IMG/VR virus record: IMGVR_UViG_3300042869_000046
Coordinates: 1-31,125 of that record
Length of the DNA: 31,125 nt
Source of the DNA: a virus
Strand: one strand, 5' to 3'
Shown here piece by piece: positions 5,534 through 11,452 of this stretch (within the stretch, counting starts at the first letter, position 1; each line of letters opens with the position of its first letter). The translations under genes were made by a program, and so were the position numbers. The notes beneath the pieces were generated by a model. The model did no database searches. It had not been told where the DNA came from and saw only the letters and a program-made list of their open reading frames with translations.

Positions 5534-5684
5534 TGTAGGCTTGACCTAGTATGGTCAGCGTGATTATTATTGTGAGAGTTATGATGACATCCTTGTCCCA
5601 GACCAAGCCAGTCAGCCAGGGACGAATCCACAGATAGTTGACAATGATTAATGCCAAGACAAGATGTTGTTGTTCTAGTGTCAC
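5520..5684 (-). CDS. Small two-TM membrane protein (holin-like candidate)
   Basis: A 54-aa frame starting with GTG, whose GTGA overlaps the methyltransferase stop. It ends 14 nt inside terL. The sequence shows two hydrophobic helices, about residues 8-28 (with a short Arg-Pro turn) and 33-50 (Ile/Thr/Leu-rich), joined by the polar turn WDKD, and short charged ends. Size and topology suit a class II holin or another small inner-membrane effector. No family can be assigned. Filling an otherwise empty 147-bp gap with exact overlaps at both ends is good evidence that it is real. It is easily missed because of its length and GTG start. Confidence 0.7.
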   Translation of the reverse strand: MTLEQQHLVLALIIVNYLWIRPWLTGLVWDKDVIITLTIIITLTILGQAYNAFK

Positions 5685-6808
5685 TCAAATAATGCATCAA
5701 AGTTGTTTTCGCTCTTGTTATATTCTTCTATTCTTCGCTTGCTTATCTCAACATAGGCAGGGTCTAACTCACAGCCTATGTATTCGTGATCTAATGCCAC
5801 TGCGGCACAGCCTGTTGAACCACTTCCGTTAAAAGGATCCAACACTATGCCACCTGGTGGAGTGATCAGTTTAATAAGATACTTCATTAGTTCTATGGGT
5901 TTCACTGTGGGGTGATTGTTTTCAACACTATCATCTATGTGTCTTTCACTACGGCTGACCTTGGGGCAGTAGAAATACTTTTGATATGGTTCTGCTATCT
6001 CACCTAGAACATTAGAGGGAAAGCGTCCCAGTTCGTTGGTTTCTACTTTAACAAACTCTCCCTTTTCATAACTGTCTACCTGTAGAGTATGTCCACTCCA
6101 GGCTGCTGTGGGCACCTTGTGGTCAATGCTGGCTTTGTCTTTGTCATTGGCATAGGGCACACGAGTAGCATCAATGTTGAGAGCACCTGTGCCCCACTGC
6201 TGAGCGTTCTTGGCAATACTATTATTCTTATATAAAGGCTTGCGTGCCAGGGCAATAGGTTCGTGTGCTGGCTTTAGACTTGAGCCCCAACCTAGCCACG
6301 GTTCTGCTTCTGGTGTTTGTGCCTTGTAGATCATACCGCATTCAACTTCTTGACAATCATAACGAGCGGCACTATCTTTATGGCATTTAGGACATTTTAC
6401 TCCACTACCTACATCTAATCCGTTATTGTCTTTCTTGGGACTATCGTGTCTTTTTAAATTGTTTTTCTTACCTGCGGCCCTATCAATGCTTTTACCAATG
6501 TCCTGGCTCTTGGGAAAGCCACTAGAATAGATCCACATAATCTGATCACGGATTTCAAAGCCTGCTTGTTCTAGGGTAACTGCAAGGTGATGATAGGTTC
6601 GTGCCGCACTGAACGCAAGTATATGTCCGCCTGGCTTGAGCACACGCAGGCATTCTTGATAGGTCTCAAGTGCTCCAGTGTTGGCATCCCACGCTTTACC
6701 TAGAAAATCAATGCCGTAGGGTGGGTCTGTGACGATGGCATCTATACTATTGTCAGGAATAGTTTTAAGGGTTTCCCTGTTATCGCCCTGTAAGATTTGA
6801 TATTTCAT
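5681..6808 (-). CDS. Orphan DNA methyltransferase, beta class (N6-adenine or N4-cytosine)
   Basis: A 375-aa AdoMet-dependent DNA amino-methyltransferase. The catalytic motif DPPYG (residues 28-32) precedes the AdoMet-binding motif DPFNGSGSTG (324-333), the motif order of the beta class. The C-terminal HPTVKP and ELDPAY segments are typical. An insertion contains C139-C142...C152...C157, a likely zinc knob in the target-recognition region (about 100-290). No restriction enzyme is encoded, so it probably protects phage DNA or mimics a host methylation signal. It sits between terS and terL, has AGGACAC before its ATG, and overlaps the next start by GTGA. The target sequence cannot be read from the protein. 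Confidence 0.93.
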   Translation of the reverse strand: MKYQILQGDNRETLKTIPDNSIDAIVTDPPYGIDFLGKAWDANTGALETYQECLRVLKPGGHILAFSAARTYHHLAVTLEQAGFEIRDQIMWIYSSGFPKSQDIGKSIDRAAGKKNNLKRHDSPKKDNNGLDVGSGVKCPKCHKDSAARYDCQEVECGMIYKAQTPEAEPWLGWGSSLKPAHEPIALARKPLYKNNSIAKNAQQWGTGALNIDATRVPYANDKDKASIDHKVPTAAWSGHTLQVDSYEKGEFVKVETNELGRFPSNVLGEIAEPYQKYFYCPKVSRSERHIDDSVENNHPTVKPIELMKYLIKLITPPGGIVLDPFNGSGSTGCAAVALDHEYIGCELDPAYVEISKRRIEEYNKSENNFDALFE

Positions 6809-9812: not shown

Positions 9813-10238
9813 TTAGCGTTTGCCCAATATGTTGTTCTTGTGACAGCGCACTGATATTTGGGCATTATACCAATCTGCAGATTCCAAAACGCCATTGTAG
9901 AACTGCTCTTTGGCTTCCCAATATGAACACTCTGCTTTGGAGTAACACAAGCGAATGATCTCTCGTGAGAACTGATCTTTGCCCTGTAGCTCAATGTCTT
10001 TGGCAAGAGCATCACTTGATCCGTAATATGTCAACCAATCACTATCCACATATGAACGAATCTTTTTCTTTACTCGTTTACCATTTTTCTGTGTGTGCAT
10101 CTTATATCGTGTTTTGGCAAACTTGGCTAACTTCTTACCAATATACTTTTTGTCATTTATCAAGTTCGTAATCAGATACACAAAGCCAACTACATCATCA
10201 GGAAGTTCAGTAATCTCTTTATTATTGTAAATCCACAT
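9813..10238 (-). CDS. GIY-YIG family endonuclease
   Basis: A 141-aa protein with a GIY-YIG nuclease core: GFVYLI (18-23) and KYIG (31-34), a likely catalytic arginine R44, the DWLTYYGS segment (67-74), glutamate E108 in SYWEAK, and a C-terminal NNILGK (135-140). This is the short free-standing form common in aquatic phages, close to homing nucleases of the Seg/I-Tev type but without a clear separate DNA-binding domain. It starts 24 nt after the last hairpin of the noncoding region and has AAGGA upstream. It may act in phage recombination, host DNA attack or element mobility. Confidence 0.85.
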   Translation of the reverse strand: MWIYNNKEITELPDDVVGFVYLITNLINDKKYIGKKLAKFAKTRYKMHTQKNGKRVKKKIRSYVDSDWLTYYGSSDALAKDIELQGKDQFSREIIRLCYSKAECSYWEAKEQFYNGVLESADWYNAQISVRCHKNNILGKR

Positions 10239-10261
10239 ATCACTTATTCCTTACTATTAAA

Positions 10262-10803
10262 GATGTCTTACAGACATCAACTCATTTCGCTTCCGCTCAC
10301 TCGTATGTCGCTTCGCTTCGTTCAGAAACACATAATGATCTATTGAGATACTTTATGTAGATTGTTTCAGTCAGACGGAACCGTTTTCAGCGGCACCGTC
10401 TATCTTTATGTGAGTTGCCCCAGCCAAGACTTATGGAAGCAGGTGTTTTCATCACTGTATGCTAAAGGACTCTGTGCTTTTCCTTACCTGCCACGATATG
10501 CGTTACCGCACTCTAGACCTCGTTCCTAGTGTCTAGATGTTTATAGCCAGTGTGTTCGTATGCTAACATTCATACTATATCAATGCGTTGGTTATCTTTG
10601 CTTTCAACCTCAAACCCACTTCCAATTTTTCAGGATAGTTGCCGTAGCAACGGGGGTGCCTCAATATGTCTCGTGCCCAGTTATTCCCTGGTTTTTCCAC
10701 AGCCCTATTACAATCTGGCGGGCCAACCTTGTGTGTTAGATGATAGTGCCTAAAATGATTTGGATTGCCAATGATGCCTAAGTGTTTTGCCTGTCACAAG
10801 TAT
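10262..10803 (-). ncRNA. Candidate large structured RNA
   Basis: The span 10239..10975 has no convincing gene, yet its minus strand holds a chain of perfect helices. Examples are GTTGC-TACG-GCAAC (10638..10651, a cUACGg tetraloop), GUGCG-GUAA-CGCAU (10498..10511, GNRA), TGGG-GCAA-CTCA (10411..10422, GNRA), TCTAGAC/GTCTAGA (10512..10537, abutting the GUAA hairpin), GTATG/CATAC (10558..10575), GCAGGT/ACCTGC (10439..10491) enclosing AAGGA/TCCTT, AGACGG/CCGTCT (10373..10401), ACATAA/TTATGT with an inner stem (about 10330..10360) and GATGTCT/AGACATC (10262..10278). Stable tetraloops appear only in minus-strand sense. Size (about 540 nt) and phage setting recall ROOL or GOLLD RNAs, but I cannot confirm membership. 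The 5' end is set by TATAAA at 10803..10808 only loosely. Confidence 0.6.
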
Positions 10804-10836
10804 TTATATAAGAGACAAAATATCAGAATTAAATGT

Positions 10837-10873
10837 GGTAAAAGACGAAACCCAATCATTGCGACTGGGTTTC
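10837..10873 (-). terminator. Terminator after the late/lysis block
   Basis: GAAACCCA (10847..10854 on plus) and TGGGTTTC (10866..10873) form a perfect 8-bp stem with an 11-nt loop. On the minus strand it is followed by GTCTTTT, a short interrupted U-tract. It lies about 100 bp after the zinc-ribbon gene and just before the candidate large RNA, so it would end the tail-fibre/lysis transcript and isolate the RNA. Confidence 0.6.
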
Positions 10874-10884
10874 TAACAGGGCTC

Positions 10885-10915
10885 GTTTCTAATGGCAATA
10901 AGAAACTACTTTTTG
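10885..10915 (+). terminator. Opposite-facing hairpin with T-tract
   Basis: GTTTCT and AGAAAC (10885..10906) form a 6-bp stem with a 10-nt loop, followed on the plus strand by TACTTTTT. Its polarity is opposite to all genes. With the neighbouring minus-strand terminator it makes a bidirectional block that would stop antisense transcripts arising from the noncoding region. It could instead be a further stem of the structured RNA. Confidence 0.4.
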
Positions 10916-10975
10916 ATTTAGTGACAGCCAAACCATCCCTTAGGATTAACGGATATTTGTCCCTGCTAATAATAT

Positions 10976-11452
10976 TTATTCCGCCTGTGTGTTTTCACAA
11001 TGAATTGTGATTATTTCTTTATCACTTTCAAATGACACTTGATGTCCAGTCTTAAGTGTGCTGTAATGATTTGAAGCATTGTTGTCTGGTACGGTATATT
11101 TGCCAGTGTCTTTGTTAAGATATCGTTGACAGGTCACACATCGTTTACGCCAATGCAGGCCTAGTGCTCTTGATGGATATATTTTGGCAGTGACTTGTCT
11201 GCCATTGGGGCAGTGTTTACCGCAGTCTTCGCAGTTAGTGGCACAGGGTTTAAGTTTGACCAATATGGGTACCACTGTGGGATTGACACCATCAACAAGC
11301 TGCACTGCCATTTCTGGCTCTTCACCTTCCACAATGGGTTTGAATTTACCCTTGGCCATTTTACGGCTTTGTTTAATTTGAGTGTCGCTGACCTTTTCAA
11401 ATCGCCATTCTGCCACTTCACTGAGGATTTTTTTAAATTCTTTGTCGTCCAT
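10976..11452 (-). CDS. Zinc-ribbon protein, unknown
   Basis: A 158-aa protein. Its N-terminal 35 residues are a charged helix. Residues 70-81 carry C70, C74, C77, C81 and residues 105-108 carry C105 and C108, which together could form a zinc ribbon. Basic residues flank the cysteines (RKRCVTCQR), suggesting nucleic-acid binding. It follows the XhlA-like gene by 7 nt and is the last gene before the terminator. I do not recognise the family; a transcription factor, a packaging accessory or an endonuclease fragment are all possible. Confidence 0.75.
   Translation of the reverse strand: MDDKEFKKILSEVAEWRFEKVSDTQIKQSRKMAKGKFKPIVEGEEPEMAVQLVDGVNPTVVPILVKLKPCATNCEDCGKHCPNGRQVTAKIYPSRALGLHWRKRCVTCQRYLNKDTGKYTVPDNNASNHYSTLKTGHQVSFESDKEIITIHCENTQAE

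Follow-up and report, generated by a model that had tools for sequence, protein, structure and literature searches.

A large pseudoknotted noncoding RNA that probably travels with a SegE-type GIY-YIG nuclease gene in aquatic phages

Results

Two RNAs lie between segE and its upstream neighbor

The stretch analyzed here (the window) covers the 31,125 bp of IMG/VR virus record IMGVR_UViG_3300042869_000046, and our subject is a large noncoding RNA in it, named RNA B, together with the SegE-type nuclease gene beside it. The initial annotation had pointed to about 740 bp free of genes adjoining a GIY-YIG nuclease gene, and we indeed found a gap of 737 bp (10239-10975) between two minus-strand genes, the SegE GIY-YIG gene (9813-10238) and a hypothetical gene (10976-11452). 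The gap carries two minus-strand RNAs, the small RNA A (10967-10841) and RNA B (approximately 10797-10259). The nuclease, 141 aa long, is a clear member of the SegE family (PF19835, 113 bits against a cut-off of 25, E=1.1e-32), and its residues Y21, Y32-I33-G34, R92, E111, and N125 show at least 95% conservation. The major capsid protein of the window has 47-48% identity to those of pelagiphages HTVC111P and HTVC202P and 40% identity to that of Dishui Lake phage DSL-LC06, so the window represents a small tailed phage and not a T4-like one. Two further contigs (L002 and L003) are near-identical copies of the window across the shared stretch.

RNA B has a multi-pseudoknot structure supported by covariation

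RNA B is supported by conservation and covariation. A promoter-like motif, TATAAATA, lies upstream of it on the minus strand (10801-10808) and would place the transcription start at about 10797, and relatives of the window type carry (C/T)TAAATA variants at this position. At the other end, a terminator-like hairpin, GATGTC-TGTAA-GACATC followed by TTT (10278-10259), ends RNA B before SegE. From these two signals we infer a transcript of approximately 540 nt.

Two alignments were used to determine the structure, A4 with 49 non-redundant RNA B homologues and A6 with 84 more diverse cores. According to A4, the 5′ domain starts with CTAACACACAAGG and spans 10739-10577 on the minus strand, with helices 10725-10720/10705-10700, 10691-10688/10680-10677, 10667-10661/10583-10577, 10657-10654/10617-10614, 10651-10647/10642-10638 (with a UACG loop), and 10609-10606/10593-10590. 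It is followed by a conserved pseudoknotted core (10575-10439, minus strand), which was resolved from both alignments. The core opens with helix 10575-10571/10562-10558, and its helix 10552-10548/10457-10453 is extended by a GCUA/UAGC pairing (10547-10544/10464-10461). The other elements are helix 10537-10531/10518-10512, the GUAA hairpin 10511-10498, and three short helices, 10494-10492/10476-10474, 10491-10487/10443-10439, and 10485-10481/10469-10465. The extended helix 10552-10544/10464-10453 crosses 10491-10487/10443-10439, which in turn crosses 10494-10492/10476-10474, and the 3′ strand of the latter sits in the loop of 10485-10481/10469-10465.

In A4, 97.0% of the 3,651 pair cells of the 75-pair structure were standard pairs, compared with 33-39% when the partners were slid. 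Because these alignments had also served to derive the structure, the slid control is biased in its favor, but the two-sided changes within helices are independent of that. Such changes occurred in 40 of the 75 pairs (390 cells), a level reached by none of 500 shuffles. In A6, the core helices were 97.1% paired with 404 compensatory cells, against 28-47% when slid. The predicted folding energy of the gap was ordinary (z = -0.69 on the minus strand and +0.21 on the plus strand); it is the covariation, and not the folding energy, that puts the structure beyond chance. Protein coding in RNA B was rejected, as there was no long conserved sense frame and the alignment contained single-base indels.

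These results bear out most of what the initial annotation had read from the letters of the window. Its large structured noncoding RNA, possibly of a new class, is upheld by massive covariation and by the lack of an Rfam match, and two of the outcomes that would have counted against it did not occur, as the 49 homologues showed 390 two-sided cells and no conserved protein. Of its individual helices, those closed by the UACG (10651-10638) and GUAA loops are real, as is the abutting one (10537-10512), and all three have compensatory changes in homologues; the GCAA hairpin (10421-10412) is present but showed no clear covariation. The choice of the minus strand also stands, since G-U pairs and compensations fit it and all SegE neighbors are on the same strand. 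Three points go beyond it: the presence of two RNAs in the span, the nuclease as a systematic partner, and a sister group with the Polynucleobacter-1 motif.

The tail of RNA B contains two identical repeats

Downstream of the core, the tail (minus strand) consists of direct repeat copy 1, CTC-ACATAAA (10414-10405), a hairpin with the invariant 3′ strand GGUUCCGUCU(GAC) (10401-10373), and copy 2, TCT-ACATAAA (10361-10352). The 3′ strand GGUUCCGUCUGAC of this hairpin was invariant in the alignments, and although it was itself part of one search pattern, it was equally invariant in loci found by other patterns. The flanking repeats can be written as CTC-R and TCT-R. Several R sequences occur, yet 173 of 174 elements had an identical R on the two sides of the hairpin. 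A hairpin between identical repeats was found in 181/187 elements of type 1 (the window type) and 58/107 of the sister group (type 2, see below), and in none of the shuffled sequences. No complementary partner in cis was found for the repeats, which are identical and not complementary, and they look like two sites for one partner. The 3′ module GAGUGAGCGGAAGCGAAAUGAG (10302-10281, minus strand) is supported by motif counts: 109 of 140 loci had a GAGCG..AGCGA motif no more than 160 nt downstream of the tail, whereas shuffled sequences never did.

RNA B is widespread in aquatic phages

A 21-base motif from the gap matched 47 IMG/VR stretches, and relaxed patterns extended this to well above 100 loci. 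Altogether RNA B was found in at least 170 IMG/VR loci; among the fetched loci, 178 had the tail motif and 164 of these had the core motif too. The carriers include unrelated phages, among them small HTVC111P-like ones of approximately 31 kb and large T4-like ones that have a gp46/SbcC-like gene. RNA B was single-copy in 16 phage contigs. On this distribution, RNA B is classed as a member of a widespread, almost undescribed family in water-dwelling phages. One branch conserves the 5′ domain (10739-10577), while in others, e.g., L099, L105, and L119, unrelated sequence stands in its place and the 3′ core is kept. In relatives sharing the upstream gene of the window, RNA B is often missing from the locus or a different core is present. 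Other noncoding, structured-looking stretches (e.g., GTATATGACGGCTAATTGTTCCCCCGC) were seen in L218, L228, and L229, approximately 550-1000 nt downstream of the homologue of the 10976-11452 gene, and are possibly further RNA types.

BLASTN against GenBank phages (50,697 records) gave no real match to RNA B, the nearest SegE carriers that had been fetched included. Matches in Klebsiella were 30-nt chance matches at E=3, a 46-bp match in a Xanthomonas plasmid was judged to be chance, and an R1 match in phage Melnitz (E=0.028) was rejected because it lies inside a RimK-like gene. In bacterial genomes, a first scan gave no RNA B match, and a second gave 21 motif matches, with a convincing core only in L373 and L375. 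Both are PBPT01 contigs of one Red Sea Neomarinimicrobiota metagenome-assembled genome bin, and are probably phage contigs binned into it. Rfam scans of the window (at the gathering cut-off and at E<=10) and of the homologues gave no credible model match for RNA B, GOLLD, ROOL, and OLE included; weak matches to skipping-rope, Clostridium-PBP, and isrG were far under the cut-offs. No tRNA gene was found in the window or in 60 loci.

SegE is a systematic neighbor of RNA B

Of 114 fully flanked loci, 95 had SegE beside RNA B with both on one strand (upstream in 88 and downstream in 7, the window included), 19 lacked SegE, and none had it on the opposite strand. Full-length SegE occurred once in 15 of 16 large phage contigs, always within about 700 bp of RNA B, and two of the 16 had an additional weaker SegE match far off. 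The distances of RNA B and SegE were correlated (Mantel r 0.60, p 0.001). In approximately 38 loci, the SegE stop codon fell within the first conserved motif of the RNA, always at the same offset. The near-constant adjacency suggests that the two spread together.

The association is not obligatory in either direction. L005 has no SegE, yet 461 nt of the gap retain 93% identity there, compared with about 80-83% for the neighboring genes, so the RNA is conserved above its flanking genes and this conservation holds without SegE. Cultured phages, in turn, carry SegE without RNA B, with no nhmmer match in L088-L093 and with searches that covered whole records.

Two side observations concern this neighborhood. 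In 22 loci, including L011, L014, and L056-L063, SegE is separated from the RNA by an open reading frame of 83-92 aa with CxxC pairs (cluster c1); this frame ends within, or just ahead of, the first motif of the RNA and has no Pfam match. SegE-family proteins, including the one at 9813-10238, bear the label "NAD synthetase" in PHROG 447 and in many GenBank phages, which is evidently a misannotation.

A sister group carries the Polynucleobacter-1 motif

In L222 (4051-4545) and L223 (5731-6250), the first hairpin of the window type is joined to a different RNA core at the same locus. L222 joins the CCGTTCTGATGTGTGACGG motif of the sister group to the first hairpin, 3′ module, and terminator of the window type, and SegE is kept. 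Searching with the L222 core identified more than 120 contigs of this sister group (type 2; L236-L354), and SegE was nearby in 71 of 121 type 2 loci. The 5′ part of type 2 RNAs is the Rfam Polynucleobacter-1 RNA (RF01718), with 66-81 bits in five of the loci tested (e.g., L237:10099-10237 and L245:7166-7311). Only type 2 loci (L237, L238, L242, L245, and L248) passed the RF01718 gathering cut-off, and RNA B of the window gave no match above this cut-off or at E<=10.

RNA A and other features of the window

RNA A is a small RNA of approximately 125 nt made up of a closing stem, a loop hairpin, and a terminator, all on the minus strand. Directly before it lies the promoter-like, T4-late-like motif AATAAATA (10973-10980), whose AAATA part is unchanged throughout alignment A8. 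The closing stem AGCAGGG/CCCUGUU (10967-10961 with 10881-10875) is covarying, the hairpin at 10906-10885 with the conserved loop UUAUUGCCAUUA (UGCCAUU) came from the covariation analysis, and the intrinsic terminator (10873-10847) has a 12-pair stem and a T tail supported by sequence and covariation. The terminator that the initial annotation had placed ahead of the structured region is therefore real, but it lies within the gap and closes the separate RNA A. In 20 sequences, 94.8% of the RNA A pair cells were paired compared with 37-54% when slid, with 59 compensatory cells. RNA A was kept in 20 relatives, RNA B-lacking ones included. In L005 (6478-7020), an inserted small open reading frame (91 aa as listed, starting at GTG) separates RNA A from RNA B, both of which are still conserved.

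T4-late-like (A/T)ATAAATA motifs occur on the minus strand of the window at 2177, 7321, 8317, 9239, 9790, 10808, and 10980; all seven are on the coding strand and none on the plus strand, despite this being a small non-T4 phage. The DNA methyltransferase gene at 5681-6808 (minus strand) has a PHROG match aligning 371 aa to 233 profile positions, and these alignment lengths suggest that it carries an internal insertion.

Discussion

A probable homing cassette

We consider it probable that the minus strand at 10797-10259 encodes a stand-alone, multi-pseudoknotted noncoding RNA of approximately 540 nt and that the SegE-type nuclease (9813-10238) travels with it as a homing cassette, because the single copy, same-strand linkage, spread across phages, and domain swapping all fit this. 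By analogy with T4, SegE, as a free-standing homing endonuclease, would cut the DNA of co-infecting phages without the cassette, and recombination would then copy the RNA gene in, as SegB does for the T4 tRNA region. The RNA gene would then be the cargo, or the host locus, of the endonuclease. RNA B itself may act in trans, probably late in infection, and probably binds one partner twice via the two identical tail repeats.

Several observations weigh against the cassette. The 19 of 114 loci without SegE nearby mean that RNA B can persist alone, and the nuclease gene has no constant side, being mostly upstream of RNA B but downstream in the window type. The downstream genes of RNA B-lacking loci differ, and hence no precise empty site was found among them. 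The promoter motif was not enriched in loci with SegE upstream, that is, outside the small-phage type. Finally, the idea of two-site binding draws solely on the identity of the repeats.

Alternative explanations

The main rival, which we regard as unlikely, is that RNA B is an architectural RNA like GOLLD or ROOL that forms a homo-oligomeric particle during lysis, with SegE as a mere hitchhiker. It shares the style of these RNAs, but no Rfam model matched, none of 60 loci had tRNA genes, and SegE is linked to the RNA too tightly to be a casual hitchhiker.

Quite improbable is a single ribonucleoprotein in which RNA B guides or switches on the GIY-YIG nuclease. The tight same-strand linkage would fit, as would a protein of just 141 aa of which PF19835 spans nearly all, and the SegE stop codon at a fixed offset in the first RNA motif of approximately 38 loci. 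A stop codon inside the RNA motif is a layout known from TnpB-omegaRNA loci. On the other hand, the RNA occurs without SegE, and cultured phages have SegE but not the RNA; moreover, seven loci carry SegE on the downstream side, and no guide-like segment was found. A more specific form, to which we give marginally less credence still, is an RNA-controlled DNA-cutting machine, in which RNA B would bind the small protein and set where or when it cuts, and the paired repeats would hold the recognized sequence. If true, this would make it a homing nuclease, guided or gated by RNA, with no relation to Cas, TnpB, and IscB.

Very little speaks for a self-splicing intron or intron remnant whose endonuclease would be SegE. 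Group I introns are classically associated with GIY-YIG enzymes and the core is pseudoknotted, but there was no group I or II match at E<=10, the helix order is unlike P3-P8, and the flanking genes are complete, with SegE ending normally and no split gene seen. A group I layout was tried and rejected, as its ACUAU/AUAGU pairing clashes with two covarying helices. Just as implausible is a long cis-regulatory leader controlling SegE translation, for although the window RNA lies just upstream of SegE and the seg and mob genes of T4 are controlled by RNA hairpins of this kind (PMC2988022), 88 of 95 SegE-linked loci have the RNA on the downstream side. The RNA also persists without SegE, and in the window a terminator-like hairpin separates the two.

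Comparison with known systems

Large structured RNAs of phages whose function is unknown have long been puzzling. RNA B contributes a widespread family in which a multi-pseudoknot structure is well supported, the protein partner is systematic, and repeat identity is a strict rule, and these features together make its function testable. The cassette also suggests that free-standing GIY-YIG enzymes may mobilize big noncoding RNAs besides tRNAs.

The initial annotation had compared the region with ROOL and GOLLD, and this likeness holds for style: RNA B, too, is large, ornate, phage-borne, and pseudoknotted, and, as in GOLLD, its 3′ part is conserved while its 5′ part varies (PMC12286853). It does not hold for family, because RNA B matches neither model, has no tRNA neighbors, is SegE-linked, and is shorter than GOLLD. 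Polynucleobacter-1, so far an orphan motif with Burkholderiales and fresh water as its listed sources (PMC2864571), now gains a larger context as the 5′ part of type 2 RNAs; these share their tail and SegE neighbor with the window type and occur in similar aquatic phages. The RF01718 model covers only 141 nt, leaving the tail outside, and the 5′ domain and core of the window RNA differ. By the shared tail, RNA B of the window is assigned to a Polynucleobacter-1-associated superfamily, but it is not itself RF01718.

On the protein side, T4 SegB promotes inheritance of the tRNA region, according to work cited in PMC2988022, and can amplify this region against defences (PMC13096335). The window cassette is similar in having a free-standing GIY-YIG gene beside noncoding RNA genes, but here the enzyme, a putative homing endonuclease, is of the SegE family, and the putative cargo is one large pseudoknotted RNA instead of tRNAs. 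The closest named relative is T4 SegE (PF19835), whose gene lies between inh and uvsW and which targets uvsW (PMC2988022); the window gene is a clear member of this family with the GIY-YIG motif residues conserved.
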